Source of the DNA: a virus
DNA: 30,711 bases
Direction: 5' to 3' (one strand)
IMG/VR virus record: IMGVR_UViG_3300032214_000625
Span: 1-30,711 of that record
The notes beneath the pieces were generated by a model. It was not told where the DNA came from. It did not search any database and saw only the letters and a list, made by a program, of their open reading frames with translations. Positions 6,915 through 30,711 of this stretch are shown in pieces; the stretch's first letter is position 1; every line of letters begins with the position of its first letter. The position numbers were made by a program, and so were the translations under genes.

Positions 6915-6936
6915 TAGCTTCGGGGCATGAGTTGTG

Positions 6937-6950
6937 CTGCACACCTGTAG
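6937..6950 (+). promoter_or_regulatory. Palindromic promoter-like motif, copy 2 (before capsid)
   Basis: CTGCA-CACC-TGTAG in the 108-bp gap between scaffold and capsid (6915-7022). It has one mismatch in the second arm. The position equals T7 phi10, the strongest late promoter. The rest of the gap shows no gene and no clear Shine-Dalgarno sequence. Confidence 0.55.
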
Positions 6951-7022
6951 AGATCGAGCCCGCTGAGGCGGATAACTCGCTGATCGAACGGCTGAGACAG
7001 GCGCTCGCAAACCTTAGCCCCC

Positions 7023-8027: not shown

Positions 8028-8053
8028 GCTCCACCTGGAACGAGTGGAGGCCT

Positions 8054-8085
8054 GAGGCTCCCGGCTCACGCTGGGGGCCTTTTTT
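8054..8085 (+). terminator. Strong intrinsic terminator after capsid gene (T-phi position)
   Basis: The 12-base arms GAGGCTCCCGGC (8054-8065) and GCTGGGGGCCTT (8070-8081) pair around a TCAC loop, with three G-T wobbles, followed directly by a T run through 8085. T7 carries its T-phi terminator at the same place, just behind gene 10. Confidence 0.9.
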
Positions 8086-8106
8086 GTGCCCGCCGATAGG
8101 ATTGGC

Positions 8107-8120
8107 CTGCACCCCTGCAG
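8107..8120 (+). promoter_or_regulatory. Palindromic promoter-like motif, copy 3 (before gp11)
   Basis: CTGCA-CCCC-TGCAG, perfect arms (extended to CCTGCA/TGCAGG), between the capsid terminator and the gp11 start seven bases further on. It restarts transcription logically after the terminator. The upstream flank ATTGGC adds to its likeness to the Syn5-type promoter ATTGGGCACCCGTAA, as I recall it. Confidence 0.6.
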
Positions 8121-8127
8121 GCGTCCA

Positions 8128-12497: not shown

Positions 12498-15400
12498 TGG
12501 CTGAGCTCCCCAACAACCAGATCCAGCCGGTTGCTCGCCCGGTTGACAGCTTCATCCAGCCCGAGCGGATCCAGACCGCAGCGCCGGCCCCCGTGGTGCT
12601 GATGCCCAACCCGGGCGGCATCCGCACGATCGGGCAGGGGAGTGGCGGGAGCGTTGATGGGGCCAACCAGTTCCAGCAGCTGGCCCAGGCGCTCGCCCCG
12701 TTCAACCAGCGGCTCTCTGAGTTCGCTGGCGCCGGCCTGCAGCTCTACGCCAGCAGCGAGTACCAGAAGGGCCAGCAGGAGGCGGCGCTGGCCCAGGCCA
12801 GGGCAGAGCAGCAGATCAGGGCATCGGGCGAGCAGTTCGCCGCCGAGACCCGCCGGCTGGAGAACGCCGACCCGGAAGCGGCCCGGATGCTCGATCGGGT
12901 GAACCCCTACCGGGAAGCCGGCCGGGTGAACCAGCTCAGCCGGATGGCGGGCGCCGAGATTGAAACGGCGCTGATGAACGAGTACCGCAACACCCCGGAC
13001 GTGGTGCTGTGGAAGGACGGCGACCCGCGGCTGACGGAGCTGCGAGCCACGGCGGTGAATCGCGTTCTCGATAAGTACCGGCTGAACCCCAACACGCCGG
13101 GCTTCCTCGATTACGTGCTGCCCCAGATCGGGCAGGGCATGGACAAGGTGGTGAGCCGCCAGCAGCAGGACCGCAGCCAGTACCTCAAGGCCACGCTGGG
13201 GCCTGCAGCGGCTGCAGAGGCCGTCAATGAGTTTGCAGCGGCCAGGGAGGCTGGCCGGGTTGAGTGGGTGGAGTTCGACCTGGCGACTGGGACGCAGACC
13301 CGGCGCAGCGCCGAGCTGGCCACCGACCCGGAGGGCTTCCGCGAGGGCATGCGCGTGCGCTTCACGGTGATTGCCGACCGGATTGCGCGGGAGTCGGGCC
13401 TGCAGGGGGAGTCCACCCAGATCATCGGCGAGATGTTCCAGCGGCTCGCTGGCCTGGCAGCTGCGAACGGTGGCGACCCGCTGCTGCTGCAGATCGCCGC
13501 CAGGACGGGCGTGGGGCCGATCCTCAGCGACCGCACCCGAATGATGGCCGGCGAGCTCTATGGCCTGGAGATGCTGGAGTCCGCCGACAAGTTCGGCGCC
13601 ATGGCGGCCCGCCAGCAGGAGCGCAAGCTGGAGCAGGGCCTGGCCGCCTTCGAGGAGGAGCTGCTGCAGATCACGGCCGCCACGCCTGAGGACGGGCCAG
13701 AGCGCGGGCAGGCGATCGCTGCAGCCATCAGCAAGGCGCAGGAGCAGGGCCTGCCGATCGGGAAGCTGAACGAGCGGGCCGAGGCGGCGCTGGCTGTGAC
13801 CGACAAGCTCTACGCCCGGGGCTTCAGCTCCGAGCCGGCCGCCGAGTTCCTCGACCGGGTGCAGGGCATGCCGATCGGCCAGTGGAACCCGCAGGAGTTC
13901 GATCGCGCTGTGATCGCCGCACTCAAGAGCGTGGCGCCAGAGGACCGCGACAAGCTCCGCGCCAGGGCCAACGCGATCAGGGCTGAGAAGGAGGGCAAGC
14001 GGGGCAAGCTCGATCCCCTCGCCCAGCCGGTCATCACCGGCGCCGTCAAGGACACGCTGGCCCGCTTTTACCCCAAGGGCGTGACAGCGGCGGCCCTGCG
14101 CGGTGCCGACGTGACGGGCCTGCTGTCGTGGGGCGACGCCAATGTGGCGGCAGCGTCTGGCCGGCTGCTACCTGCCTTCCAGGCCGTGGCGTCCGATGCG
14201 CTCGATGCTGCTGCTGTGAAGAAAGGCGGCGCCCTGACCCCGGCCGAAACCACCACGGTGGTGCGGCAGGCCCTGCAGAAGGCCATGCAGGACGAAGGCT
14301 TCATGCGGTCGCTGCTCCCTGGCAGCAGCACCGGCGAGCCTTCCGTGGGCGGGGCCCCGGCTCAGCCGCCAGCGCCTGGCACGACCCGCCGGCTGCCGCC
14401 GCCCCCCGGCAAGAAGGAGAGCGCCCTGCCCACTGTCACCAGGGCCAACCTGGACAACATCAACACCGATCGACTGAGGCGGCCTGAGCCGGTGCTGGGC
14501 TTCAACGATGCCGCCGAGGAAGCGGCCAGGATCGCCAACGGTGGGCGGCCGTCTGCCTCAGTGATCCGAGCAGCGAGGCGGGCAGGCATGAGCCCCGGCC
14601 AGTTCATCCTGCGCCAGCTCGATGCCTACCCGCAGGCGCCAACCCCTCCCGATCTGCGGAAGCGGTTGCTGATGAGCTCCGCAGGGCCCCAGGCCGTGGC
14701 CAACAACCTGAGCGGCTGGGCGGCGGCCTCCGCGCCGGTGCAGGCGGCCGGCAACTGGTTCCTGAACGCACTGATGCCACCAGCGACCGCCGCCACCATC
14801 GCCCCAGGGATGCGTTTCTACGGAGGTGGGCGAGACGCCGAAGGCCCTTTTACGGGTGACGGCTACAGCCCCCTGCAGGGTGTGCAGATCACCAGCGCCG
14901 TGGATGCCAGCGGCGAACCGGGCTTCGACATGGTGATCGAGGGCGGCCGGCGTGGCGCACGCCTGGCCTGGCCCACCAGCTTCGAGGTGCTGCGCGTGGT
15001 GCGTGGCAGCCGGGCAGAGTTCCGCCGCGACAAGGGCGACCCCAGGCGGGGCTACGGGAATCTGGTGGAGATCCGCTTCACCGACCCGACCACCGGCCGG
15101 AAGGTGGACGTGCTCAGCGCCCACCATGACGAGATCAACCCGGCGCTGCAGCCGGGCCGGCGCTTTGGCCCCGGCACCTGGCTGGGCACTCAGGGGCGCA
15201 CTGGCAGCACCACCGGCGCCCATGTGTCGCTGGACTTCTTCGACCCCGGCGCCAAGACCGCCAGCGGCGCCACCTTGCAGATCCGCAACAGGTTCCGCGA
15301 TGGCTTCGCCCGTGGTGATCGCTTCGGGGCGCCACAGGCCCAGCAGCGGGGCACCGGCTTCATGTCCCGGGATCGGCGTGGGCAGGCGGTGATTGCAAGC

Positions 15401-15805
15401 GCCAGGCGGATGGGCGTGAACCCCCTCGACCTGGCGGCCATCTTCAGCTTCGAGACCGGCGGCACGCTCAACCCCAACGAGCCAGGGCGCGGCGCTGCTG
15501 CTGGTCGGGTGGGGCTGATCCAGGCGGGGCCGAACGAGATGCGGGCCTACGGCATCCGGCCGGGCCAGACCTTCGAGCAACAGATGAAGGGGGTGGAGAG
15601 GTACTTCATTTCGCGTGGCGTCCGCCCTGGCATGGGGCTGGAGGATCTCTACGCGATCGTCAACGGCGGGAATCCACGGGCAGGTTTCACGCCTGACGGA
15701 AACGGTGTGGTGGCCCGCTCGCCAGAAACCCTGCAACGGCTCAGAATCCATAGAGAACAGGCGCGTCGGCGTCTTGGCCTGATGCCGTCCCGAGGTGGTT
15801 CCTGA
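12497..15805 (+). CDS. Large internal virion protein (gp15-like) with M23-like and lytic transglycosylase domains
   Basis: A 1102-residue protein, longer than T7 gp15 (747). The ATG follows a good AGGAGG (12486-12491). Residues 1-600 are mostly helical with a Gln/Ala-rich N-terminal part, as in gp15. From about 785 to 915 there is a LytM/M23-like beta region: GEPGFDM (Glu807 where the family has His, Asp811), GYGN (852-855), SAHHDE (His876/His877), GSTTGAHVS (His909, Ser911). Two of the usual zinc ligands (first His, second His of H-x-H) are replaced, so this domain is probably non-catalytic. From about 955 to 1095 is a lysozyme-like fold with FSFETGG (Glu986, catalytic position) and GLIQ. 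In T7 the transglycosylase sits on the N-terminus of gp16; here it is on the gp15-like C-terminus. It likely opens the cell wall during DNA entry. Confidence 0.85.
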   Translation: MAELPNNQIQPVARPVDSFIQPERIQTAAPAPVVLMPNPGGIRTIGQGSGGSVDGANQFQQLAQALAPFNQRLSEFAGAGLQLYASSEYQKGQQEAALAQARAEQQIRASGEQFAAETRRLENADPEAARMLDRVNPYREAGRVNQLSRMAGAEIETALMNEYRNTPDVVLWKDGDPRLTELRATAVNRVLDKYRLNPNTPGFLDYVLPQIGQGMDKVVSRQQQDRSQYLKATLGPAAAAEAVNEFAAAREAGRVEWVEFDLATGTQTRRSAELATDPEGFREGMRVRFTVIADRIARESGLQGESTQIIGEMFQRLAGLAAANGGDPLLLQIAARTGVGPILSDRTRMMAGELYGLEMLESADKFGAMAARQQERKLEQGLAAFEEELLQITAATPEDGPERGQAIAAAISKAQEQGLPIGKLNERAEAALAVTDKLYARGFSSEPAAEFLDRVQGMPIGQWNPQEFDRAVIAALKSVAPEDRDKLRARANAIRAEKEGKRGKLDPLAQPVITGAVKDTLARFYPKGVTAAALRGADVTGLLSWGDANVAAASGRLLPAFQAVASDALDAAAVKKGGALTPAETTTVVRQALQKAMQDEGFMRSLLPGSSTGEPSVGGAPAQPPAPGTTRRLPPPPGKKESALPTVTRANLDNINTDRLRRPEPVLGFNDAAEEAARIANGGRPSASVIRAARRAGMSPGQFILRQLDAYPQAPTPPDLRKRLLMSSAGPQAVANNLSGWAAASAPVQAAGNWFLNALMPPATAATIAPGMRFYGGGRDAEGPFTGDGYSPLQGVQITSAVDASGEPGFDMVIEGGRRGARLAWPTSFEVLRVVRGSRAEFRRDKGDPRRGYGNLVEIRFTDPTTGRKVDVLSAHHDEINPALQPGRRFGPGTWLGTQGRTGSTTGAHVSLDFFDPGAKTASGATLQIRNRFRDGFARGDRFGAPQAQQRGTGFMSRDRRGQAVIASARRMGVNPLDLAAIFSFETGGTLNPNEPGRGAAAGRVGLIQAGPNEMRAYGIRPGQTFEQQMKGVERYFISRGVRPGMGLEDLYAIVNGGNPRAGFTPDGNGVVARSPETLQRLRIHREQARRRLGLMPSRGGS

Positions 15806-18800
15806 TGCCCCAAGAATGGAAACAAGTCAACGGCCGCTGGCAGTTGACCGGGGGGCAGTCTTCCGACGACCTGATCCCTTACATCCCTGCAGGCCAGCCG
15901 CAGCAGGCGGCGGCCAAGCCCAAGCCGAAACCCAAGCCGAAGCCACGCCCGAAGCCGCAGGGCTTCATGCAGCAGCTGTGGAACCAGACCGGCGGGAAGC
16001 TGGTCAACGATGCCACCTACGAGCTGCGCCAGCTCCGCACCGATCCGCTGCGATCGGCGCAGCGCCTGGCCGGCAATGCCGTCCCCCTGCTGGTGCGTGC
16101 CGCCACCGGCCAGGCCTGGGCCAACCCGAACCTGCTCGCCCCCCTGGGCGCGGGCGCGGGCGACAACGTGCTGCGGATGAGCTACTCGCTGTTCCAGCGG
16201 CACGTCCAGAAGCGTGACAAGGCCGACCCATCGGCAGGGCCCATCGGCCAGTTCCTCGACGCGAACGTGGACAGGACGTACCGGCTGCTGGGGGCGAAGC
16301 CGCCGTCAGAGATGAGCCAGCCAGAGCGTGACTTCGACTCCGCTGTGCGCTCGGTGGGCCTGAACATCGCCCTGGGCTTCATCCCCGGCGCGGGCCTGGG
16401 CGCTGCTGGCGCTCGCACGGCGGCCGGTGCCGTCACCCGCGGCGCGGGGGCCGTGGGGCTGAACGAGTTTCTGAGCACCTTCCTCGACGACAACACCGGC
16501 GGGAACATCGTCAACCTCGTCAACGACCTGGGCGGCCTCAAGCTGCCCGGCGGCGTGAATGTGGGCCATGACGACATGGTGACGGCGGCCACGAAGTCGC
16601 TGGTGCCCAACGCCGTCCCCGGCGTCCTGCTGGGATCCGTGGCTGGCTTCGCCAATCTGGTGCGCCGCCAGCGGGCAGGCCGGCTGGTGGAGGAGGTGCG
16701 GACCTCCCGCAACCGGCTGGAGCGTGCCGGCGTGCAGGAGCCAGCCGAGGACGGCACCGCCAGGTTCACCCCAGAGGCGACCGACCCCGGCAATGCGGCG
16801 ACGTTTGCCGAGGCGAACGCGATGCGCGAGCAGCAGCTGGGCGGCCAGCCGGCCCCGGCCCCCTCGCCGGCTGCGGTGGGCCCCGAGGAGCAGATCGCCC
16901 GCAACAACGAGGAGATCGAGCGGCTCAGGGCTGAGCTGGGCGAGGAGGAGGTGCCGCCCCCGAACCCCGATGCCCCCGAGGCGGACGGGCTGCTGCGGAT
17001 GACCGACGAGCTGGACGACCAGGAGCTGCAGGCGGTGGCTGCCACGCCTGGCCCCGTGGTGGACACCGTGAACCAGACGCTGCAGGCCCGGCCTGGCTTC
17101 GAGCCCAACCCGGCGATCCGGCCTGATCTGGTGGCGGCGCCCACCGACCGGCTCAGCCAGCTGTATCTGGACGGTTCCGGGGCGATGGAGCCGTGGGAGA
17201 AGCAGATCGAGGCCATCCCCGTGGATCAGCTGCGCTCGCTGGTGTTCCCCGGCAACAACCCGCAGATGGCGGCGCGGATCCTGGCCCGCACCGGCAAGCA
17301 GTTCAACGAGCTCACCCGCGACGACATTCTGGGGCTGGTGCGCGAGATGGGCCTGGACGGGCAGACCGTCCTGCCCAACCGGATGCAGTCGGGCCAGTCG
17401 GTCGTTCGCACGGAGGACATTGACGCAGAGCCCGCCGCCTTCCAGTTCAAGGAGGGTGTGAACGCCCAAGGCGAACAGGCGGGCAACTCGCTGGGTGGCG
17501 TGAACCTCTGGGATCCCACCGCCGAGGGGATCATTCAGGTGTGGCGGGCCCCAGACGGCCGGCTCAAGGTGGTGAACGGCCACAACCGGCTGGCCCTGGC
17601 CAAGCGGCTGGGCATCCCCAGCCTCCGGGTGGAGGAGCTGGTGGCCACCACCCCGCAGGCGGCCCGGTCGCAGGGCGCGGTGGCGAACATCAGCGCCGGC
17701 AACGGCACCCCCTTCGACGCCGCGAAGTTCCTCAGGGAGACCGGCATCACGGACGAGGCGCAGCTGCGAGCCGCTGGCATCCCGATGGATTCCGGCTGGG
17801 GGCAGCAGGGCCTGGCCCTGTCGAAGCTGCCGGATGACCTGTTCCAGCAAGCGATCAACGAGCAGCTGCCGCTGCGGCGTGCCGTGCTGATCGGACAGAG
17901 CGGCCTTGATCCCGAGTCGATGCGCTCGGCCTGGCGGATGGCCCTGGACAAGCCGGGGATGACCGAGGGCGTGCTGCGCGAGGTGATGGCCTACAACCGG
18001 GCCAACCCTGCAGGCGCCGCAGCTGCTGCCGCCGACCAGGGCGACCTGCTGGCCGGCACCGCCTGGGACATGAGCGAGAACCCGGCGATGGCCGCCAGGG
18101 CTGAGCTGGCCGCTGCTGTGCGGCAGATGCTCTCCAGCGACCGCAAGCTGTTCGGCACCGTGGGACGCCAAGCCGGCCGGCTGGAGGGGGCCGGCAACAC
18201 GGTCGACCGCACCGGCGCCAAGGCGATCAGCGCCGAGGCCACGCAGGCGCTGGCCATGTTCGACCAGCTCAAGTACGTCACCGGCCCCGTGGCCGATCTG
18301 CTGAACCGTGGCGTGGACGAGGTGCTGGCCGGCGGCAAGCCTGGCGCCGTGGCCCAGATCATCAAGGCCGATCTGGCGACCGCCATCGAAAACACGATGA
18401 CCCGGCAGGCGGATGAGGCCGCCGAGGCCCCCATCGCCGCAGCACCGGCGGAAGCCCCCGGGCAAACGGGCCTGTTCGGCGATGCCGCAGCGCCCGAGAT
18501 GGCCCCGGCCCGCCCGCTCACCGCTGACGAACGCGAGGCGCTCAAGATCCAGGTGGTGAAACGGGCGGCCGCACAGGGCGAGATCCGGCCCAGCGCCACC
18601 CCTGAGCCTGAGCTGCCCGCCCCCGGCCGGGTGGGGCTAGAGGAGGCGATCGCCGACATCGAGGCCCGTGGCGGGATCGAGCCGGGGAGCCCCGGCGCCC
18701 AGGCGCTGGCTGATGAGGTTCGGCTGGCCCAGGAGTTCCAGGTGCAGGACGCCGCCATGCGGCAGGACCAGGAGGATGCGCTGCGCGATGCGTTCGGCTA

Positions 18801-19167
18801 CGAGGCCAAGACCTTCGAGGAGAAGAAGGAGCTGGGGATGATCGACGGCTGGGATCCGGCCGATTCGATCGAAGACATGCCGAAGGTGGCCGACATGCTG
18901 GACGCTGCCAACGACCTGGCCGCCGGGATCGACAGCAGGGCCGCCACCAGAAACGCTGCCAGGGTGCAGAGGGCCAAAGAGTTGGCCGATGAACTGGCCC
19001 CTCGCCCGACCCTCCCCGAACCGCTGCGGATCAGCGACACTTCACCAGAGGCGGCCCCTCCCAGGCCCTTGGCGCGGCGGATCGACAACGAGAACCGCGC
19101 CAAGATCCTGGCCAACAACCAGGAGATGGACGATCTCCGACAACAGGCCATGAAGGAGGGCTGCTGA
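15805..19167 (+). CDS. Large internal virion protein with DdrB/ParB-like domain
   Basis: A 1120-residue protein in the middle of the ejection block. Residues 38-52 are a Lys-Pro repeat (KPKPKPKPKPRPKP). Residues 170-215 are Gly/Ala-rich and hydrophobic. From about 533 to 735 there is a ParB/sulfiredoxin-like domain of the DdrB type: VRTEDIDAEPAAFQFK, GIIQVWRAPDGRLKVVNGHNRLALAKRLGIPSLRVEEL (core N591-G-H-N-R595), then a helical region with NGTPFDAAKFLRE and SKLPDDLFQQAINEQLPLRRAVLIG. This domain is known from phage and plasmid 'polyvalent' proteins delivered with DNA. Near the C-terminus QTGLF (887-891) fits the sliding-clamp-binding pentapeptide Q-x-x-L-F. The C-terminus is helical and charged. 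It starts one base into the previous stop. The role is inferred: ejected with the genome, possibly acting on DNA in the host. Confidence 0.8.
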   Translation: MPQEWKQVNGRWQLTGGQSSDDLIPYIPAGQPQQAAAKPKPKPKPKPRPKPQGFMQQLWNQTGGKLVNDATYELRQLRTDPLRSAQRLAGNAVPLLVRAATGQAWANPNLLAPLGAGAGDNVLRMSYSLFQRHVQKRDKADPSAGPIGQFLDANVDRTYRLLGAKPPSEMSQPERDFDSAVRSVGLNIALGFIPGAGLGAAGARTAAGAVTRGAGAVGLNEFLSTFLDDNTGGNIVNLVNDLGGLKLPGGVNVGHDDMVTAATKSLVPNAVPGVLLGSVAGFANLVRRQRAGRLVEEVRTSRNRLERAGVQEPAEDGTARFTPEATDPGNAATFAEANAMREQQLGGQPAPAPSPAAVGPEEQIARNNEEIERLRAELGEEEVPPPNPDAPEADGLLRMTDELDDQELQAVAATPGPVVDTVNQTLQARPGFEPNPAIRPDLVAAPTDRLSQLYLDGSGAMEPWEKQIEAIPVDQLRSLVFPGNNPQMAARILARTGKQFNELTRDDILGLVREMGLDGQTVLPNRMQSGQSVVRTEDIDAEPAAFQFKEGVNAQGEQAGNSLGGVNLWDPTAEGIIQVWRAPDGRLKVVNGHNRLALAKRLGIPSLRVEELVATTPQAARSQGAVANISAGNGTPFDAAKFLRETGITDEAQLRAAGIPMDSGWGQQGLALSKLPDDLFQQAINEQLPLRRAVLIGQSGLDPESMRSAWRMALDKPGMTEGVLREVMAYNRANPAGAAAAAADQGDLLAGTAWDMSENPAMAARAELAAAVRQMLSSDRKLFGTVGRQAGRLEGAGNTVDRTGAKAISAEATQALAMFDQLKYVTGPVADLLNRGVDEVLAGGKPGAVAQIIKADLATAIENTMTRQADEAAEAPIAAAPAEAPGQTGLFGDAAAPEMAPARPLTADEREALKIQVVKRAAAQGEIRPSATPEPELPAPGRVGLEEAIADIEARGGIEPGSPGAQALADEVRLAQEFQVQDAAMRQDQEDALRDAFGYEAKTFEEKKELGMIDGWDPADSIEDMPKVADMLDAANDLAAGIDSRAATRNAARVQRAKELADELAPRPTLPEPLRISDTSPEAAPPRPLARRIDNENRAKILANNQEMDDLRQQAMKEGC

Positions 19168-19168
19168 A

Positions 19169-22100
19169 ATGTTCAGTTGCGATGACACCCAGCGCCGGAT
19201 TCTGGAGCTGCAGGAGGAGAACCGCCGCCTGGCGGCCGAGAGCGAAGCCAACGCACGGCTGCGGCGGGCAGGGGAGGCCTTCGCCAAGGCCGAGGTGGGG
19301 GAGCAGATCCTGCTGCCAGGGCCTGGCGGGCGAGTGCGGACGATCGACACCGCCGACGTGAATCGAGGCCTGCAGCAGGTTGCCACCCTGATGGGCAGCG
19401 AGGACGTGCAGCGGTTCGTGGACCGGGGCCTGGGCGAGAGTGCCCGCCCGGTCGGCGCCGATGCCGAGTGGCAGAACTTCGACCGGATCCTGAGGGAGAC
19501 CGACGTTCAGGACGCCCGCGACTATGCCCTGCTGGCCAGGGCGCTGGGCATCCAGTGGGGCGACATGAACCCCCGGGATCATGCGTTCGTCACGGAGGTG
19601 TACGACAAGACCCGGATGGCTGAGGTGGTGGCCAGGGCCTACAGCGATCTGGGCGTCACCATGAACGATGTGATGGCCCGCATGGCGAACGATGCCGCAG
19701 GCTTCACCGGGCTGGTGGAGCGGATGGCGCGAATCCGGCTGCTGGCCGATCGCTCGAAGAAGGGCTATCTGGATGCGGTCGGGCAGATCGACGCCTTTAT
19801 GGACAAGCTGCCCGGTGCCGTGGTGCCGGATTCGCTGAAACAGGAGGCCTTCCGGTCCTACAAGCTGGCGCTGCTCTCAGAGCGGCACTACGCCTTTGCC
19901 CGCCGCCGCACCGGCCAGACGCTGCGAAGCCTGCAGGACGGACTGGACGAGCTGGGCGCCAATGATCTGCGGCTCGACTTCACGGACACCGACGAGGTGG
20001 AGGGCACCCTGGCGCTCACCCCCAAGGACGTGAGCAACAACAGCCATATCGGCAAGGTGATCGAGGCGGTGGACAACGGCGCCGCGGGCCAGCTGGAGCT
20101 CAAGGGGCTCATCACCGCCGCGAAGGTCGATGCACTGGACCCCAGAAGCCGGCTCGATACGGACTGGTTCAACACGCAGATGCGAAAGGCCAATGCCTGG
20201 GCGAAGGACTCGCAGCTGACGAACCTCAACACCCAGCTGAAGGTCAACATCGCCAGCAACTTGGCCATGGCCGTGTTCGGCCCCCTGCAGGTGATGCTCG
20301 AAAACGGGCTGACCAGCTACCGGGTCGGCACCAAGACCACCCGGCTGGGCCTGATCGAGAGCGCCAAGATCCACAGCATGGCGGCCCAGCAGGCGCTGGC
20401 GATGACCAGGGCCACGCTCAAGCAGGACATGCTCGACGTGTTCTACGAGGGCAAGGCCAAGTACACCACCAACGTGGACCTCTGGGGCGCCAAGCTCCCC
20501 AGCAACGAGCAGGAGATGGCCGAGGCCGACGCCATCCTGTCGATGAAGTACGAGCAGAAGGGCGGCCCGCTCAACCCCATCAACGTGGCGATCTGGGGCA
20601 AGAAATTGCAGGTGGCGACCCGGCAGGTGCTGGGCAAGGCGGTCCCCGGCGTGCGGCTGCCCTGGCGCCCGGGCCTGCGCGGCCTGGCGGCGACTGACGA
20701 GCCCTTCGCCAAGTACCACTTCCTGTTCCACCTGCGGGCCAACCTCGAAGTGAAGGCGCGGATGGAAGGCGCCCAGCTGGGCCTGCTGGACGAGACCAGC
20801 CGCAGCAAGTGGGTAGAGACGCGGATGCAGGAGGCGATCTACCAGACCACCCCCACCGAGGCGAACGTCAAGGCGCTGCGGCGGCAGCTGGGCATCAAGG
20901 GGTCGGACATGACCGACGACCAGATCGTGGACATGATCTCCGAGCGGGATCTGATTGGCTCGCCCACCCTCTCCACGCCCGAGTCGCGGGCGGCGATGGA
21001 ATACAGCCAGTGGGCCAGGTTCCAGAACAAGCCCAAGAGCAGCGAAATCACCTGGGGCGGCGGCATCGTCCAGAAGGTGGACGAGGGCGTGCAGTCGGTC
21101 CGCTCCAGCTGGGTGATGGACACCCTGATCCCCTACTGGCGCTCCCCCATCAATGCCCTACTACTCGACCACCGGCTGAGCAGCTTCGCGCTGCTCGACA
21201 CCGTAAAGGTGCTGACGGCCAAGGATCGGAGCCCGCAGATGGTGGCCAAGGTCAGGAGCAGCTGGATCATATCGTCCGCGCTGCTGAGCCTGTTCGCCGT
21301 GCTCGATGCCACCGGCAACATCGACGGGGGCACCGCCAGCGACCCGACCAAGCGAAACCGGGTCTTTGGCATCCCCTACCTGGGCGGCATCCCGATCCTG
21401 AACACCCTCTTTCTCTGGAAGGACATCAAGGACGCCGCCGGCGCGGCGCGGGCCAGCAAGTTCGACGGAGACGAAATGATGGCCGGCGTCATGCAGGTGC
21501 TCACCAGCCAGATCATGCGCCAGACCGGCATCGGCACCCTGCAGGGCCTGATCCAGGCGCTGACCGATGCGAACAAAGGCGGGTGGGAGAAGTTCCAGCG
21601 GACGGTGGCCTTTGTCGGCAGCGGCCAGATCCCGCTGATCGGCCCGGTGCGGCAGGTGCAGCGGATGACCGGCACCGAGGACCGCGACCACTTCACCGAT
21701 GGCGCCGACACCCCGAACCAGCGGTACATGGCGGACGAGGACGACCCGATCCAGGGCGTGCTCGATGGCCTGCGGAAGCTCGCCTATCAGACCCTGCCGA
21801 TCATCGCCCAGCCCACTGGGGCCCCCCGGAAGATGACCGACTGGCTGGGCAGCCCAGTGGGCCACATCGCTGGCGTGGACCTGGCCAGGGCCATCCCCTT
21901 CTACCCGTGGGGCGCCTGGCCGAACGACAAGGTGTACGACGAGCTGGACGCCCAGGACATGCTCGATCCGCCCCGCCCGCTGCTGCAGAAGGTGCTCCGT
22001 GGCGTCGGCATGAGCGACCAGCTGCAGGCTGAGTTCAATGACATCTATGGCACGGTCAAGGGGGAGAGCATCGTGGGCCGGTTCGCCATGGCCGGCAAGA

Positions 22101-22564
22101 AGGTCAATGTCCGCTTCCCCATGCCGGTGGAGGTGGTGGCCTCGAACGGCGTGCGGATCCGCAAGGACGGGGGCGTCACGATCCCGCTGGATCCGTTCCT
22201 TGAGAAGCACGTCAAGGGCAAGACCTTGATCGAGGCGCTGCGATCGCTGTTCAACGACCCGATCTACCAGGCGATGGAGGCCGACCCGCTCCAGTCGGCA
22301 GACCTGAGCGTGCAGGATCAGCCACGGGTGAAGCGGCGCCAGCGGCCGGCGCAGCAGATAATCCAGGCCATGAAGGACTACTACCAGCTGCTCACCGAGG
22401 ACGAGCTGGAGCGGCGCGCCGCCAGCGGCAGGAGCCCCGAGGCGAAGCTGTGGAGCGACACGCTCACCAAGCAGGCGGACGACACCCGCCGCCGGTCGCA
22501 AGAGGAGCTCGACCCTGGCCGCCGGCAGAGCTGGCTGAGGCAGCTGATCGACGCTGTGAACTGA
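19169..22564 (+). CDS. Largest internal virion protein (T7 gp16-like)
   Basis: A 1131-residue protein (T7 gp16 has 1318). A strong AAGGAGG (19153-19159) precedes the ATG; the first 40 residues are a charged helix (CDDTQRRILELQEENRRLAAES). The body is helical throughout. PYWRSPINALLLDHRLSSFALLD and the following hydrophobic segment (about 699-715, WIISSALLSLFAVLDA) resemble the membrane-associated late part of gp16-type proteins, and GIPYLGGIPILNTLFLWKDIKDA continues it. No transglycosylase is present here; that domain is on the gp15-like protein. In T7, gp15 and gp16 build the periplasmic tunnel and motor that pulls DNA in. The C-terminus is basic and ends RRQSWLRQLIDAVN. Confidence 0.83.
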   Translation: MFSCDDTQRRILELQEENRRLAAESEANARLRRAGEAFAKAEVGEQILLPGPGGRVRTIDTADVNRGLQQVATLMGSEDVQRFVDRGLGESARPVGADAEWQNFDRILRETDVQDARDYALLARALGIQWGDMNPRDHAFVTEVYDKTRMAEVVARAYSDLGVTMNDVMARMANDAAGFTGLVERMARIRLLADRSKKGYLDAVGQIDAFMDKLPGAVVPDSLKQEAFRSYKLALLSERHYAFARRRTGQTLRSLQDGLDELGANDLRLDFTDTDEVEGTLALTPKDVSNNSHIGKVIEAVDNGAAGQLELKGLITAAKVDALDPRSRLDTDWFNTQMRKANAWAKDSQLTNLNTQLKVNIASNLAMAVFGPLQVMLENGLTSYRVGTKTTRLGLIESAKIHSMAAQQALAMTRATLKQDMLDVFYEGKAKYTTNVDLWGAKLPSNEQEMAEADAILSMKYEQKGGPLNPINVAIWGKKLQVATRQVLGKAVPGVRLPWRPGLRGLAATDEPFAKYHFLFHLRANLEVKARMEGAQLGLLDETSRSKWVETRMQEAIYQTTPTEANVKALRRQLGIKGSDMTDDQIVDMISERDLIGSPTLSTPESRAAMEYSQWARFQNKPKSSEITWGGGIVQKVDEGVQSVRSSWVMDTLIPYWRSPINALLLDHRLSSFALLDTVKVLTAKDRSPQMVAKVRSSWIISSALLSLFAVLDATGNIDGGTASDPTKRNRVFGIPYLGGIPILNTLFLWKDIKDAAGAARASKFDGDEMMAGVMQVLTSQIMRQTGIGTLQGLIQALTDANKGGWEKFQRTVAFVGSGQIPLIGPVRQVQRMTGTEDRDHFTDGADTPNQRYMADEDDPIQGVLDGLRKLAYQTLPIIAQPTGAPRKMTDWLGSPVGHIAGVDLARAIPFYPWGAWPNDKVYDELDAQDMLDPPRPLLQKVLRGVGMSDQLQAEFNDIYGTVKGESIVGRFAMAGKKVNVRFPMPVEVVASNGVRIRKDGGVTIPLDPFLEKHVKGKTLIEALRSLFNDPIYQAMEADPLQSADLSVQDQPRVKRRQRPAQQIIQAMKDYYQLLTEDELERRAASGRSPEAKLWSDTLTKQADDTRRRSQEELDPGRRQSWLRQLIDAVN

Positions 22565-25854: not shown

Positions 25855-26964
25855 TCAGCCGGGCTTCGGGCAGGTGCCGAGGCCCCAGTCCACGTAGATC
25901 TCCCGCACTCCTTCGGCATACCACCGGAGGAGTGCTTCCATATCGCGCCGGGTGTTGACGCCAATGCAGCCGGCGGTGCCCGGTGACACGGGGGCGTTGA
26001 AATCCAGGTGCGCCTCGATCAGTGTTCGCTTGGTGCCGCCAGGACGCAGATAGGTCATGGGGATGGACACCGGCCCCAGGCCGGGCCCCCAGCTGGCGGT
26101 CCAGTTGCCCACGCCACCGGCCCAGGCGGGGGGCTCCATGCGCCACAGGCCCTCTGGCAGTGGTTCGAGGCTGCTTGCCTGCGATGCGGCGGCCGTGCGG
26201 AACTGCTGCCGGCCGGGGGCCCCGCTCACCACGATGAAGCCCTCAGGCCCACCGGCGGGACGGACCCGCTCCAAGGCGAGCTCCACCAGGCCCTTGTTGT
26301 TCGTCTTGGGCGTGCGGGTGAGCCGCAGGTAGCCGGCGACCGGCCGCTGCTGCGCGGGGGTGGTGAGCTTGGGCGACTGCGGACGGCCTGCAAGGATCCG
26401 CAGCAGCTTGTCCGGATATTGGCTGTCCGTGGCGTAGCCCTCCTCCTTCAGCAACCTGGCTGCTTCCTCGACCGTGGCCGCCCGGTTGACACCCTTGTGC
26501 TCCTCGAAATCCCGATACCACCGGCTCACCAGATACTCGACCCCGGCGCGAATCGTCGGGAAGTCGATGAACTCAGCGACCTCTGGCCGCATCTGGCCGC
26601 CGACTTCCTCCAGCGTCTGCTTCTTGGTGCCCTTGCCCTTGAGGCCCCAGAAATTGTTGGCCCCTGAGGGTTTCTTGCCCCAGCCGGATTCGAGCGCCCA
26701 CTGAGCAGCGACCAGCTGGGGGAACTTGGCGCCGGCAATGCGGGCCGCCATCTCGATCCCTTCCCAGGTGTTGGGCACATCGGCCTGATCGCTCTTGCGG
26801 GTCTCCTCGATCCACTCGGCGCCCTCCACCAGCAGGCCAGGGTCCGCCTCGATGATGTGCTTCCGCAGCATCAACAGGCCCCGCTTCTGCGCCGGCAGGC
26901 CCTTGTAGTGCTCGAAGAAATCCAGCCAGCGTTTTTCGCTCAGCTGCACATCAGAGATCGGCAT
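25855..26964 (-). CDS. Endolysin: GH73-type glucosaminidase plus YkuD-like domain
   Basis: A 369-residue protein when started at the ATG at 26964; an ATG at 27012 would add 16 residues but would run into the divergent gene and over the motif. Residues 65-160 match FlgJ/GH73 glucosaminidases: AAQWALESGWG (Glu92, catalytic position) and SGANNFWGLKGKG. Residues 240-365 resemble an L,D-transpeptidase (YkuD) core: AHLDFNAPVSPGTAGCIGV, with His319, Asp321 and Cys333 in the H-x-D...G-C-I order. No signal peptide is present, so it needs a holin to reach the wall. It cuts peptidoglycan at lysis by the first domain; the second may cleave or bind cross-links. The gene runs opposite to its neighbours, unusual for a T7-like late gene. 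Confidence 0.85.
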   Translation of the reverse strand: MPISDVQLSEKRWLDFFEHYKGLPAQKRGLLMLRKHIIEADPGLLVEGAEWIEETRKSDQADVPNTWEGIEMAARIAGAKFPQLVAAQWALESGWGKKPSGANNFWGLKGKGTKKQTLEEVGGQMRPEVAEFIDFPTIRAGVEYLVSRWYRDFEEHKGVNRAATVEEAARLLKEEGYATDSQYPDKLLRILAGRPQSPKLTTPAQQRPVAGYLRLTRTPKTNNKGLVELALERVRPAGGPEGFIVVSGAPGRQQFRTAAASQASSLEPLPEGLWRMEPPAWAGGVGNWTASWGPGLGPVSIPMTYLRPGGTKRTLIEAHLDFNAPVSPGTAGCIGVNTRRDMEALLRWYAEGVREIYVDWGLGTCPKPG

Positions 26965-26976
26965 GATGGTGGTGGT

Positions 26977-26990
26977 CTGCACTCCTGCAA
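26977..26990 (+). promoter_or_regulatory. Palindromic promoter-like motif, copy 6 (divergent gap)
   Basis: CTGCA-CTCC-TGCAA in the 28-bp gap between the endolysin start (26964, -) and the next + start (26993). The + ATG lies two bases after the motif. On the other strand it contains AGGAG, about 19 bases before the endolysin ATG. Confidence 0.5.
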
Positions 26991-26992
26991 TT

Positions 26993-27325
26993 ATGGCGGA
27001 CGCCAAGCCCACCGACTACGCCGCCCTGCTGGAGGAGATCCACGGCCTGGAGCTGGGCATCCTGCGCGACCAGCTGCAGGCGATCCGCGACATGCAAGAA
27101 GCTGGCAGGCCGTTGGAGACCAGCGCCGGCATCCCGATCGACCCGCTGGCGATCGTGCGGGCGGTGGAGATGGCCCTGAAGCGCAACAGCATCAGCGCAC
27201 CGCTGGAAGACCGCAGCAACAAGCAGCAGGACATGGCGACCCTGGCCCGAAAGCTGGACTTCAAGGGCATCAGCAACAAGCGGAAGGTGATCCCGTTCCC
27301 CCCTCAGCAGCAGGAGGGAGCGTGA
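26993..27325 (+). CDS. Hypothetical protein, possible small terminase
   Basis: A 110-residue protein started at the ATG at 26993, just behind the palindromic motif; an upstream ATG at 26963 would read through the motif. It is helical: a Leu/Glu-rich first helix (YAALLEEIHGLELGILRDQLQAI), IDPLAIVRAVEMALKRNSISAPLED, and a basic end (ARKLDFKGISNKRKVIPF). Small terminases of T7 type (gp18, 89 residues) have a comparable size and a pattern of a helix followed by a 'LxxxNxI' turn, and T7 has gp18 in this zone, but the large terminase here is on the other strand. The match is weak. The stop overlaps the next GTG (GTGA). Confidence 0.5.
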   Translation: MADAKPTDYAALLEEIHGLELGILRDQLQAIRDMQEAGRPLETSAGIPIDPLAIVRAVEMALKRNSISAPLEDRSNKQQDMATLARKLDFKGISNKRKVIPFPPQQQEGA

Positions 27326-27471
27326 ACTGGACCGCGATCCTGGCTGACGCCGGCATCCCCGAATCGCCCGGCTACCGGGAGACCGTGGCGCTCATGCAGG
27401 GCCGGCCGGTGGTGGTGGCCGCCAAGGTGCAGCTGCACGCCAAAAAGGCCCCTCCGAAGAAGGGCCTTTAA
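27322..27471 (+). CDS. Small hypothetical protein (49 aa) ending in a terminator hairpin
   Basis: GTG at 27322 follows a good Shine-Dalgarno sequence (AGGAGG, 27311-27316) and overlaps the upstream stop. The product is MNWTAILADAGIPESPGYRETVALMQ... with a Val/Ala-rich middle and a very basic end HAKKAPPKKGL. That end is encoded by the AAAGGCCC/GGGCCTTT inverted repeat, so coding and terminator overlap. No family is recognised. Confidence 0.5.
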   Translation: MNWTAILADAGIPESPGYRETVALMQGRPVVVAAKVQLHAKKAPPKKGL

Positions 27472-27474
27472 GGG
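27433..27474 (+). repeat. 42-bp direct repeat, copy 1
   Basis: It is identical to 27602-27643 except for one base (C/A at the 22nd position), with an offset of 169 bp. It holds the inverted repeat described as a terminator and the sequence coding for LHAKKAP(P/T)KKGL-stop. Confidence 0.95.
27442..27469 (-). terminator. Intrinsic terminator, mainly for leftward transcription
   Basis: AAAGGCCC (27444-27451) pairs with GGGCCTTT (27462-27469) around a 10-base loop. On the minus strand the hairpin is followed by a run of five T (complement of 27442-27446). On the plus strand the tail is only TTTAAG, so it is weaker there. Confidence 0.75.
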
Positions 27475-27481
27475 GTAGATC

Positions 27482-27643
27482 GTGTCCCTCTCGGATGGTT
27501 CCCTGCCGCACGGTCGGAGGGGCCGAACAGTTGGCCTGCCCGAAGGTCGAAGCCAGTGCCCCCAAACTCTAATGCGCCTTGCCGCTTTGGCCTCGATGAA
27601 ACTGCACGCCAAAAAGGCCCCTACGAAGAAGGGCCTTTAAGGG
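27482..27643 (+). CDS. Possible small ORF (53 aa) ending in the repeated tail
   Basis: An open frame from GTG 27482, with internal ATGs at 27572 and 27596, ends in MKLHAKKAPTKKGL, the same C-terminus as the previous gene because the second repeat copy keeps the frame. A weak AAGGGG precedes the GTG. The product is basic and no family is recognised. It may be a real minigene or an accident of the duplicated terminator. Confidence 0.25.
27602..27643 (+). repeat. 42-bp direct repeat, copy 2
   Basis: The second copy of 27433-27474, one mismatch. It keeps both the hairpin and the reading frame of the KKGL-stop tail. Confidence 0.95.
27611..27638 (-). terminator. Intrinsic terminator, second copy
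   Basis: AAAGGCCC (27613-27620) pairs with GGGCCTTT (27631-27638), with a T5 tract on the minus strand. With the first copy it forms a tandem stop for transcripts coming leftward from the terminase group, before they would reach the endolysin region. Confidence 0.75.
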
Positions 27644-27789
27644 TTGCTGCCTAGCTCTCTTTGGAGTTTGCGAGCGACAGCGATCTCGCTTCCTGGCGCT
27701 ATTACGACACTGGCTACTGCTCGACAGCTCCAGTACCGGTGCTTGCTAGGCCCCAAAAAACGTCGAGCGCCGTGAGGGGATTAGAGCTT

Positions 27790-27803
27790 GTGCACCTGTG
27801 CAG
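27790..27803. promoter_or_regulatory. Palindromic promoter-like motif, copy 7 (beside terminase end)
   Basis: GTGCA-CCTG-TGCAG on the + strand, CTGCA-CAGG-TGCAC on the - strand. It lies six bases beyond the terminase stop and has no gene directly downstream on either strand. Orientation cannot be fixed. Confidence 0.4.
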
Positions 27804-27809
27804 AATAGC

Positions 27810-29660
27810 TCACCTCAGCCTCTGCGGCTCCATTCGCCGGCCAGCGCCAGCAGTGCCCAGCACCAGGGCGTCGGCGCTGGTGCGGCTCTCATCGAACCAG
27901 TCCTCCAGCTCCTGCTCCATGATCTCGTTGGCCCGCTCCTTCTGAGCGACCTCCTGATCCTGCGCGGCGGCAGCCACGAACCAGTTACAGGCCAGGGACA
28001 ACGCATCCGCCCGGTCGTTGAACTCCAGGCAGTTGCGCTCAGTCGTCACCCGGCTCAGCTGGTACATCAGTGACCGCTGGTGCCCAGAATCCGGGTCGCG
28101 CTCTGCACCCTCGTAGTCCTTGCGGATCACATCGGCTGACACGACCATCCGGTGCTGCTGCACCAGCGGGCCGATGCCGTCACAGATGCGGAGCTCCTTC
28201 TGCTTGGAGACCCACTGCTCCTCGATCACCACCGGATAGATCCGGTTCATGACGGCCTGCAGCAGGCTGGCGAACATGCCGCCGCCCATGTTCTCCTCCA
28301 CCAGCACGTTCGTGACCTGCCAGTGCAGCGCCCGGTGGGCCAGCATCACCAGCACCTCCTCCTCGTAGCCCTGGGTGGTGCCGCCGCACTCCAGCAGGAA
28401 GAAGTTGCCGCTCAGTTCAGCGAGCACGACCCACGCCAGCTCGTCCTTGCCACGGCCTGATGGGTCGATCGCCAGGACGCAGTTCCAGTGCTCACGGCGC
28501 GAGATCCAGCCCGACACCAGCGCCGGCTTGTGATACCAGCGGTCGGCGCCCAGGCCGACGCACACCAGATCACCGATCCGCAGATCACTGGCCCCGCCCC
28601 AGCTGACCACTTCCGGCAGGGCCTTGCCGTCCAGCTCCATGACGATGAGCTCGCCCAGGCGGATGGGGAACCGCTCCATGGTCGAAAGCCGGCAGTTCAG
28701 CTGGAACTGCAGCTGTGCCCTGGCCCGCGTCATGCGGCTTTCGCGGCTCAGCAGCTCCTCATGCCCGAACCGCTCTGGGTCGGTCGGCTCACCCACCAGC
28801 GACTTGTCGGCCAGCACTTCCGCAGCCATCACCGGATCGAGGCACCCCTCGTAGCAATCCCACTGCTCCGGGTCGTTCGGGTCCGGGTAGCGGGCCGGGA
28901 TGAAGCGCATCGCGTATTCACGCTGCCGCTTCAGCTGCAGGTACAGGCTGGTCTCGATGTGTGGCGTGCCGAGGAACAGGATCTCCCTTGGCAGGAACTG
29001 CCCCTCGTCAGGTTTCAGCACCGCCTCCAGCTCGGTGATGGCCATCGATAGCCGCTCCTGTTTCAGCGGCGTGATCGAGTTGCTGAGGGTCTCGATGTCA
29101 TCCGGCATGGCGAATGTGCATCGCTTGCCGGTGAGTGAGGGCGACAGGATCCCCACCGCCCGCACCGATGGCGACTGATCCACCAGGGCCGGGCCCACAT
29201 CGAAGCCACGGGCTGAGCTGCGGCCGTCCTTCAACGGCGCCAGGCAGCGCAAGATGTCGATGTCACGGATGCACCGCAGCATGAAGGTGGTCACTTCCAC
29301 CGCCTTGTCTGCTGTGGCGCCAGGGATCAGGATCTTCTCCCTGAACGGGTCAATCCTCAGGCGGTGCAGACAACGAAAGGCGCCCAGTGTGCTCTTGGCC
29401 GCACCACGGAACGCCGCGAGAATCTTGCGGGTCGCTGGATCCTGCATCCATTCCGCGATCGCCAGCTGCTGCTTGGTCGGTTCATCCGCCAGGCCCAGCT
29501 CCCGCAGCAGGTAGGTCGTCCAGTTCTCGAACAGCATCAGCTCCGCAGGGAGCGGGCTCCACTCCTCGAAGCCGCTGAACAGATCGGCGAACTCAGGATC
29601 GTCTGCAAGCGGGACGACATACTCGCCGTCCGCAATTTCGTCAGGCGTCCAGATCGTCAC
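27810..29660 (-). CDS. Large terminase subunit (T7 gp19-like DNA maturase B)
   Basis: A 616-residue packaging motor (T7 gp19 has 586). Visible ATPase motifs are a Walker A variant FRGAAKST (Arg85-Thr91), Walker B TFAMPDDIE (Asp187, Asp188, Glu190) and the coupling motif LFLGTPHIETSLY (229-240). The RNase H-like nuclease domain shows VLAIDPSGRGKDE (Asp399), VLVEENMGGG (Glu455/456) and NDRADAL (Asp549/552). It packs DNA through the portal and cuts concatemers. The start is GTG at 29660, with GGGGAG nine bases upstream, inside a long hairpin. It runs leftward, opposite to head and tail genes; in T7 all run the same way. Confidence 0.96.
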   Translation of the reverse strand: MTIWTPDEIADGEYVVPLADDPEFADLFSGFEEWSPLPAELMLFENWTTYLLRELGLADEPTKQQLAIAEWMQDPATRKILAAFRGAAKSTLGAFRCLHRLRIDPFREKILIPGATADKAVEVTTFMLRCIRDIDILRCLAPLKDGRSSARGFDVGPALVDQSPSVRAVGILSPSLTGKRCTFAMPDDIETLSNSITPLKQERLSMAITELEAVLKPDEGQFLPREILFLGTPHIETSLYLQLKRQREYAMRFIPARYPDPNDPEQWDCYEGCLDPVMAAEVLADKSLVGEPTDPERFGHEELLSRESRMTRARAQLQFQLNCRLSTMERFPIRLGELIVMELDGKALPEVVSWGGASDLRIGDLVCVGLGADRWYHKPALVSGWISRREHWNCVLAIDPSGRGKDELAWVVLAELSGNFFLLECGGTTQGYEEEVLVMLAHRALHWQVTNVLVEENMGGGMFASLLQAVMNRIYPVVIEEQWVSKQKELRICDGIGPLVQQHRMVVSADVIRKDYEGAERDPDSGHQRSLMYQLSRVTTERNCLEFNDRADALSLACNWFVAAAAQDQEVAQKERANEIMEQELEDWFDESRTSADALVLGTAGAGRRMEPQRLR

Positions 29661-29663
29661 AGC

Positions 29664-29701
29664 GGAAGTCTCCCCCCGCGAGCCAGGGCGGGGAGGCTTC
29701 C
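29664..29701 (-). promoter_or_regulatory. Hairpin covering the terminase ribosome binding site
   Basis: On the minus strand GGAAG-C-CTCCCCGC pairs with GCGGGG-G-GAG-A-CTTCC across an 8-base loop, with single bulges. The second arm includes the GGGGAG Shine-Dalgarno sequence of the terminase gene. No T run follows, so it is not a typical terminator. Translational control or a processing site is inferred. Confidence 0.55.
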
Positions 29702-29723
29702 AACTCGACCACCACGGAGGAGA

Positions 29724-29772
29724 TCACCCAACACCGGCCCGGTGCAATGGCTCAGCGGCGGCAACTGGGTGA
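29724..29772 (-). other. Nested inverted repeats in the terminase leader
   Basis: TCACCCA (29724-29730) and TGGGTGA (29766-29772) form an outer pair, and CACCGG-C-CCGGTG (29732-29744) a perfect inner one. Together with the hairpin next to the start, most of the 123-bp leader (29661-29783) can fold. Confidence 0.45.
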
Positions 29773-29783
29773 CACCCGGGATC

Positions 29784-30251
29784 TTACTGGCCTTCGATGG
29801 TTTCACCAGCTGGGGGCTCCTCGGCCACCGGCTCCTCGACAGGGGGCTCAACGGGGGCCGGCTCCTCGATCACGGGCTCCTCGGTCACCACCTCCTCAGC
29901 TGGAGGTTCCTCGGTCACGACTGGCTCCTCAGCCACCGGCTCAGCGGGCGCCGCCTGTTCGGCCACCGGCTCTTTAGGCTCGAAGGCCTCGTCCACGTCA
30001 GGCGTGGCCGGATCGTCAGGGATGAACTTGCCGGCGGGAGTGCGGGCCCGGCGCCGCTTGCTGATCTGCTGCAGCACCGCCTCACCACTGGCAGCTGCGG
30101 CATCTTCGGCCGCTCGCTGCTCCAGCTGGTTGTTCAGTTCGTCCAGCAGCTGCTGAGCCTTCAGGCGTGCTTCGGCCACCACCTCATCAGGGACGAAGCT
30201 GCCGTACTCGATCAGGCCCAACAGCTGGCGCTCGATGTTGGAGAGATACAC
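29784..30251 (-). CDS. Acidic Pro/Glu-repeat protein (155 aa)
   Basis: The chosen start is GTG at 30251 (MYLSNIERQLLGLIEYGSF); ATGs at 30320 and 30329 are possible but would overlap the neighbouring gene region with an odd Trp/Cys-rich leader. Residues 1-60 are helical and charged (VVAEARLKAQQLLDELNNQLEQRAAEDAAA). A basic turn (KRRRARTPAGKFIPDDPATP) follows, and the last 70 residues are a low-complexity repeat of EEPV/EEPPAEE units. No family is recognised. Placed directly before the large terminase in the same direction, it could be the small terminase or a packaging partner, but nothing in the sequence proves this. Confidence 0.6.
   Translation of the reverse strand: MYLSNIERQLLGLIEYGSFVPDEVVAEARLKAQQLLDELNNQLEQRAAEDAAAASGEAVLQQISKRRRARTPAGKFIPDDPATPDVDEAFEPKEPVAEQAAPAEPVAEEPVVTEEPPAEEVVTEEPVIEEPAPVEPPVEEPVAEEPPAGETIEGQ
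29790..29965 (-). repeat. Low-complexity EEP(V/A/P) coding repeat
   Basis: Degenerate 12- to 30-base units such as CTCCTCGGCCACCGGCTCCT on the + strand encode Glu-Glu-Pro blocks of the acidic protein. They are prone to unequal recombination. Confidence 0.75.
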
Positions 30252-30303
30252 GGCTGCAGAGCTGATCCACGAAACATAGCGCCAGCAGCCCCAGGAAGGC
30301 CCT

Positions 30304-30711
30304 TCAAGGCTGCAGACCATCCATCTCACCCACCGGCCGCCTCAAGGCCTGCTCCGCGGGCAGCGGGGCCTGAATGGCGGTGTCCTGCCCGTCGATCGCA
30401 TCTCGGAACAGCTGGATCAGGTAGCCGCGCCGTTGTGCGCCGCCGATCGTTACCAGTTCCGGGTTGACCAGGAAGTATCGATGGCCAGATCGCTCATCGC
30501 TCCAGATCGCCACCAGCTTGAGCTTCTTGAGCTTCGAGAGGCTGCGCCGCACTGCGGTCGGATCGTGCCCGTACCGCTCAGCCAACACCGTGGCGGTGAT
30601 GTCGGCTTTGCAGGTGTTGGGGTCCAGTTCCGCCATCAGGTTCCACAGCACACGGAGATCGGCGCCGTTCATCAGGCCGCCAGCCATCAGGCGCGAGACC
30701 TTGGCCAGTCC
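30304..30711 (-). CDS. Winged-helix DNA-binding protein, RepL/replication-initiator-like, partial
   Basis: The frame is open to the right edge, and the residues before the first visible Met (GLAKVSRL) read like a continuing protein, so the true start is probably outside the window. The visible 136 residues hold a winged helix: MNGADLRVLWNLMAEL (helix 1), ITATVLAERYGHDPTAVRRSLSKLKKLKLVAIW (helix-turn-helix), and SGHRYFLVNPELVTIGGAQRRGYLIQLFRDA (wing and the 'NP...GG' turn). The latter pattern is common in plasmid and phage RepL-type initiators and related regulators. It may regulate transcription or start replication. The C-terminus is Pro-rich and the stop is at 30304. The 52-bp gap to the next gene shows no clear signal. 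Confidence 0.65.
   Translation of the reverse strand, partial: GLAKVSRLMAGGLMNGADLRVLWNLMAELDPNTCKADITATVLAERYGHDPTAVRRSLSKLKKLKLVAIWSDERSGHRYFLVNPELVTIGGAQRRGYLIQLFRDAIDGQDTAIQAPLPAEQALRRPVGEMDGLQP

Follow-up and report, generated by a model that had tools for sequence, protein, structure and literature searches.

We found that the leader of the large terminase gene (TerL) in the window, a GC-rich IMG/VR virus record analysed over its whole length of 30.7 kb, resembles a conserved three-hairpin RNA placed in cis in the terminase operon. In our preferred reading, which we consider to have slightly better than even chances, the leader is a divergent copy of this RNA whose last hairpin (H3) masks the TerL Shine-Dalgarno (SD) sequence and is opened by translation of a short overlapping reading frame, ORF X. 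The RNA belongs to a clade of T7-like (autographivirus) phages related to cyanophage S-SRP02, a freshwater cyanopodovirus that the available part of its report places in a new lineage (PMC8790148).

The terminase leader of the window

TerL (27810–29660, minus strand; GTG start at 29660) is of T7 type, matching both PHROG 38, terminase large subunit (E = 1.1e-70), and the Pfam T7-type terminase RNaseH-like domain PF22530 (E = 2e-32), and its closest relatives are DNA maturase B of Synechococcus phage S-SRP02 (62.9% identical) and uncultured MedDCM phages. Its N-terminus (29564–29660, minus) is ~31 residues longer than in close relatives, and the extra residues come after the GTG that H3 abuts and before the conserved W of ‘EWSPLP’. 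The small gene upstream (29784–30251, minus) has a start better placed at GTG 30251 than at 30329, and its product matched no Pfam or PHROG family; we refer to it as TerS-like, a putative name that draws on its position and on its similarity to the gene at the same place in relatives (51% identity to the S-SRP02 counterpart across the aligned part). In the window it carries a long Glu/Pro/Val-rich tail (EEPVAEEPVVTEEPP...) that is absent from the relatives in L002, L176, L177 and L004 (L176 being part of the L159 record and L177 part of the L166 record). The TerL, TerS-like and wHTH-like genes are grouped on the strand opposite the structural genes (window 25855–30687; S-SRP02 6443–10024), and the same strand beyond TerL encodes, in the window, a glucosaminidase endolysin and, in S-SRP02, a C39 peptidase. 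Elsewhere in the window, three consecutive genes of ~1100 aa each (12497–22564, plus) had no Pfam match. Because TerL is on the minus strand, the leader between it and the small upstream gene must be read on that strand, and a plus-strand fold of the leader (z = –1.45) was set aside as lying on the wrong strand for the genes.

On the minus strand, H3 (29664–29701) is 38 nt long and consists of a 5' arm at 29688–29701 (GGAAGCCTCCCCGC), a loop at 29680–29687 (CCTGGCTC) and a 3' arm at 29664–29679 (GCGGGGGGAGACTTCC), followed by GCT and then GTG (29660–29658), so that the hairpin ends 3 nt before the TerL start codon. It is present in both the MFE and the centroid folds of the leader. The TerL SD, GGGGGG(AG) (29670–29677, minus), lies inside the 3' arm with a predicted probability of being unpaired of 0.01, and its GGGGGG would form an anti-SD duplex of –8.9 kcal/mol. 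An earlier note on this DNA had placed a stem exactly here and had it pair the TerL SD, and both statements hold. Upstream of H3 come a GU-rich linker (GTGGTGGTCGAGTT; 29702–29715, minus) and a degenerate part at the place of H1 and H2 (29716–29791, minus; this includes the stop codon of the upstream gene, 29784–29786), which in the window is mainly one long-range stem, 29765–29773 with 29723–29731. The further inverted repeats that had been claimed are present, but a nested series filling the rest of the leader is not supported as such: this part holds two separate hairpins, H1 and H2, in relatives, and H1 is largely broken in the window.

The whole 123-nt leader is about as stable as its dinucleotide shuffles (z = –0.52; equalled by 60 of 200), as are its last 50 nt (z = –0.89; 93 of 500 shuffles as stable). 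By folding energy alone, the window hairpin is not beyond chance in this GC-rich window; the energy calculation that had been proposed as a check returned the stem, but not a leader stability above that of shuffles. Among 21 gene starts tested in the window, that of TerL had the lowest folding energy (–24.8 kcal/mol; next –23.0).

The three-hairpin RNA in related phages

Relatives were collected by alignment-based scanning, twice over viral contigs and once over genome contigs (loci L010–L168), single-protein scans having given none, and 161 sequences, window included, had a usable TerL start. Of the 105 loci whose TerL is at least 50% identical and that have 100 nt or more upstream, 71 carry both H1 and H3 directly before TerL; because members of a clade share ancestry, such locus and segment counts are not independent. 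The element begins with the stop codon of the upstream gene and continues through H1 (7 or 8 consensus pairs; loop GUGGUN, G-C closed), H2, a GU-rich GGUGGUUGUUGG linker and H3, and in the adjacent type, as in the window, H3 carries the SD in its 3' arm and ends 0–5 nt before the TerL start. The S-SRP02 hairpin counts 16 pairs, with 3 nt between it and TerL, whose start is more structured than that of any other among the 46 CDS tested (–30.0 kcal/mol; next –22.4; median –13.95), with an SD probability unpaired of 0.00; the last 50 nt before TerL gave z-scores of –2.75 to –6.32 in the 7 relatives tested. H2 has no sequence alignment and takes any sequence, and the interval that it occupies has a median z of –3.22 in 42 sequences (z < –2 in 29 of 42). 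A closing helix of 5' CUAAGG with 3' CCUU, visible by eye in some sequences and absent from others, was dropped.

Covariation was assessed in two alignments, A3 (35 sequences, window included) and A5 (42 sequences, window excluded). The hairpin filter was passed by 51 non-redundant loci, of which L149, L138, L027, L032 and L028 were removed by eye for absence of the shared hairpin sequence, as were, for the same reason, 11 loci below 50% identity (L043, L079, L071, L062, L048, L077, L087, L006, L053, L083, L047). A displaced copy in L149 and L138 was found afterwards by covariance search with model R1, and L149 and L133 (same match as L138) entered A5; L098, which lacks H1, was kept out together with the window, and L150, L159, L161 and L163 are not separate rows. 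Two-sided changes were found at 17 of 22 pairs in A3 and 20 of 22 in A5. Paired cells in A5 amounted to 91.5% (vs. 78.7% in shuffles, and at most 68.9% in slid-partner controls) and two-sided cells to 137 (vs. 44.7 in shuffles), and none of 500 shuffles reached any of the five covariation measures; A5 was chosen partly by the presence of H3, and its displaced members by R1, a model containing GGUGGU, so the pairing percentage and the loop conservation are somewhat inflated, the two-sided changes less so. A lack of base-pair conservation in relatives had been named beforehand as a refuting outcome, and the opposite was found: these compensatory changes, which extend to the counterparts of H3, support the stem. 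The commonest pair at columns 129/154 is U-G (27 of 42), which points to RNA, and a DNA cruciform is disfavoured on the same ground.

The H1 loop, GGUGGU, is invariant across the 42 A5 sequences except for one base in one of them, while the H1 stem covaries. This near-invariance holds in both genomic positions of the RNA (adjacent and displaced, see below) and suggests a candidate bound partner. Rfam release 15 returned no family for the window at gathering scores and, for 11 relatives (52.6 kb), no match at E up to 1.

When model R2, built from A5 and hence without the window, was run against the window (30.7 kb, both strands), it returned a single match up to E = 10, a weak one at 29658–29791 on the minus strand (13.7 bits, E = 0.0065). 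The match ends on the TerL GTG, keeps H3 and the linker, which the model aligned to the conserved GGUGGUUGUUGG linker, and contains a mostly broken H1 and several non-standard pairs; at the place of the H1 consensus there is no GGTGGTNC. Judged from this alignment, the window leader is a divergent, partly degenerate member of the three-hairpin RNA, as is L098. It is the relatives, through their z-scores, their strong covariation and the R2 match, that supply the evidence for the window hairpin being more than chance. In the TerL tree, the window protein sits on a long branch (0.89) inside a group having the RNA before TerL (support 88/81).

The same RNA is displaced in L018, L013, L132–L134, L138, L017, L151, L149, L150 and L020, plus L159, L161, L166 and L163; in all of these but L150 it lies further upstream, with one clade having it before the TerS-like gene, mostly without X or a masked start. 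In the 6 loci with a located TerS motif, the nearest TerS ATG follows the end of the RNA by 31–74 nt; L151, one of these 6, has a further ATG, in frame, directly at H3. No frame is conserved in this clade over the length of the RNA. SD-like strength at the H3 3' arm has a median of –8.4 kcal/mol in displaced copies (n = 10) vs. –11.0 kcal/mol in adjacent ones (n = 35). In L150, a 47-aa Cys-rich gene (2855–2998; zinc-ribbon-like by eye) stands between H3 and TerL; it begins right at H3 and overlaps TerL, and X overlaps it in turn, an arrangement that fits coupling of whichever gene comes next. The displaced rows of the TerL tree except L150 form one clade with S38-C3 (100/100), and every RNA-bearing row falls on one side of a 100/100 branch. 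Taken together, the displaced copies and the tree imply that the RNA predates its use at the TerL start or does not depend on it, and its presence before a TerS-like gene mostly without a masked start implies that masking is not its only role. The masking of the TerL SD that had been suggested from the window is supported for window-type relatives, but an SD lid is not the whole function of the RNA.

A terminase-blind pattern scan of IMG/VR yielded 58 stretches, 38 of which share the strand of this TerL and lie 84–1115 nt upstream of it; the other 20 were not upstream of TerL, and R2 matched none of these 20 at E up to 0.01 (L213 weakly, 12.9 bits, E = 0.093). R1 found a strong copy (E below 1e-8) in 21 of 31 phage records, one each and near TerL. 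The order to which the Cyanobium MAG L091 belongs was represented by 299 genomes, of which 4 had a match at E up to 0.001, namely the known MAG L091 and three terminator-like hairpins (L237–L239) without TerL nearby, and a host-borne RNA was rejected on this count. Weak second matches (17.3 bits or less) were also seen on the TerL strand ~4–5 kb upstream, in S-SRP02 (13903–14047, minus), G009, G010, G011, G015 and G017; they contain a GGTGGTGGTTGTTG stretch and in S-SRP02 are antisense to MarR/integrase genes, and we do not take them for a second copy of the RNA. Two further matches, L009 1387–1455 (11.8 bits, E = 0.46; in S38-C3, a hairpin then a T run, terminator-like) and L037 1134–1230 (17.6 bits, E = 0.006; just before the TerS-like gene), are possible decayed copies of the RNA.

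An overlapping reading frame and the proposed opening of H3

The +1 frame relative to TerL runs through the hairpins. In the window, this frame (ORF X; 29657–29869, minus) is open for 70 codons, and its TGA (29657–29659) overlaps the TerL GTG as GTGA. The X stop overlaps the TerL start likewise in 71 of 71 loci (56 NTGA, 15 TGATG); stop-start overlap is also common in TerL relatives without the RNA and is therefore not specific to it. Stops occur inside X in none of 46 distinct segments, vs. 24 and 26 of 46 for the other two frames. Measured from H1 to the TerL start, the spacing has 9 different lengths, each divisible by 3, in 55 loci; in 13 loci it has 5 lengths that leave a remainder of 1, and in 3 loci 2 lengths that leave a remainder of 2. 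Within each group, then, indels keep the X frame, and between groups H1 occupies three frames. Differences at the three codon positions of X, counted over 71 pairs, are nearly equal (237/304/279), with no third-position bias, so it would be the reading of X that matters and not its peptide; together with the three frames of H1 relative to X, this rules out X as a conserved peptide gene. In many relatives the upstream stop codon comes with an SD-like TAAGG or GAGG, followed by a start codon in frame X (e.g. TAAGG-n5-ATG). The window has no obvious SD and start for X resembling this arrangement, and an in-frame TTG at 29764 is one possible start.

We propose that H3, by holding the TerL SD and abutting the start codon, would let free ribosomes start TerL only rarely. 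Ribosomes finishing the TerS-like gene would instead restart near its stop codon on the short ORF X, read through H1–H3, melt H3 and stop at the overlapping GTGA, ATGA or TGATG where TerL starts, and TerL output would in this way depend on how much the upstream gene is translated and stay low. We see X as a putative bridge that would keep TerL coupled where the RNA separates the genes, because TerL relatives without the RNA often overlap the upstream gene in the same manner. The computed support for this proposal comprises the structure, its covariation, the burial of the SD, the conservation of the frame and the stop-start overlap. X is probably translated, its translation probably opens H3, and this opening probably sets the TerL level. 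For the opener, which the earlier note had sought in a protein or in timing, the model predicts a specific candidate, a translated overlapping ORF that ends on the TerL start codon. The near-invariant H1 loop calls for something beyond coupling, perhaps a bound protein or ribosome standby.

Alternative readings and known systems

That loop also speaks for a different emphasis, in which the RNA is primarily a protein- or ribosome-binding element, its GGUGGU loop and GGUGGUUGUUGG linker being bound by a phage or host factor or serving as a standby site for the 16S 3' end, with SD masking secondary. The loop stays near-invariant in both genomic positions across 42 sequences while its stem covaries, and its duplex with the 16S tail comes to –7.5 kcal/mol; the partner, however, is a candidate only, A5 was in part assembled using a model that includes GGUGGU, and the window is without the H1 consensus. 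We regard this reading as unlikely, though deserving of weight. A broader version, which we hold about as tentatively, is that the RNA is functional in its own right, with a packaging or regulatory factor binding the H1 loop and linker, or with the host sensing it as it does the staphylococcal cabRNAs, and that the lid on TerL would be a later co-option in part of the tree. Compatible with this version are the single strong copy near TerL in 21 of 31 records, the position of the RNA-bearing rows in the TerL tree, the 38 of 58 pattern-scan stretches upstream of TerL and the unpaired nucleotides conserved at either genomic position.

A GC-rich stem soon after a stop codon could also act on the upstream gene as an intrinsic terminator or an attenuator, with translation of X in control, much as in leader attenuation. 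H3 does resemble host terminators: the three host-genome matches L237–L239 have no TerL nearby, and the one in L238 lies beside a gene that, by eye, is tRNA-like. At least 5 T are found in the 8 nt after the GC core in 12 of the 33 adjacent and 4 of the 9 displaced copies. The U tract, however, is not conserved, the longest T run is 1–3 in 33 of 33 adjacent copies, A-U is replaced by G-C at columns 122/161 in 17 of 42 sequences, and no terminator was called in the window; we consider a terminator possible but unlikely. The mRNAs of T7 are cut by RNase III, and an intercistronic stem of 12–19 pairs in a T7-like phage might be such a processing site, here dividing the TerS and TerL messages; typical RNase III sites, though, are longer than the H3 stem, and neither a conserved H1 loop nor an open X frame would be needed for cleavage, and we consider this explanation very improbable. 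Finally, the relatives might have the working element and the window merely a chance or decayed GC-rich stem without function: its energies are not beyond those of shuffles, its H1 is broken, several of its pairs are non-standard and its TerL branch is long. Against this stand a location, strand and SD burial common to the relatives, the single match at E = 0.0065 and the lowest folding energy of 21 starts, and we find such a loss of function in the window rather unlikely. Opening of H3 by translation of X is the reading we favour.

The three-hairpin terminase-operon RNA apparently has not been described before: within the accessible parts of the open-licence PMC literature, of the S-SRP02 paper and of Rfam, we found no earlier description of it. 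With it, the phage lineage around S-SRP02 would gain a structured RNA family, and it would be a clear natural case in which RNA structure and reading frame are both kept and the peptide is not.

Translational coupling by RNA unfolding is known, from the available text of one report, for MS2 coat-lysis and E. coli rpmI-rplT (PMC12548453). As far as that text describes them, these systems share with ours a downstream ribosome-binding site masked by a structure that would be melted by a ribosome translating the ORF upstream, and two of the features that mark such an element were found here, namely predicted SD sequestration (probability unpaired 0.01 in the window and 0.00 in S-SRP02) and an upstream ORF running through the structure to the start (71 of 71 loci and the window). 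The difference, on the same partial account, is that the proposed opener here is a short ORF with a peptide that gives no sign of selection, that the structure is a conserved three-hairpin RNA, and that this RNA persists in a clade where no start is masked. The ATGA/TGATG termination-reinitiation pairs, in the accessible portions of their reports (PMC6728339, PMC10666635), likewise have a stop-start overlap of 4 nt or 1 nt, found here before TerL, but consist of overlapping protein genes, whereas the upstream ORF here carries a structured RNA. Conserved structured RNAs are also present in cyanophage genomes as the motifs manA, wcaG and PhotoRC-II, which, according to the part of PMC2864571 at hand, sit at metabolic and photosynthesis genes; the three-hairpin RNA sits at the terminase and is without an Rfam match.

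The nearest idea in print, among the sources in the form available to us, is the cabRNA, a structured RNA that likewise comes from the terS-terL region, in staphylococcal phages (PMC10686824). The cabRNAs, in the available part of that paper, have no mutual sequence homology and are known as activators of CBASS, whereas the RNA described here is a covarying family in other phages. For the cabRNAs, the same part of PMC10686824 gives no settled role in the phage itself; a conserved, covarying RNA in a like place of unrelated phages makes the reason for structured RNA at terminase genes testable.
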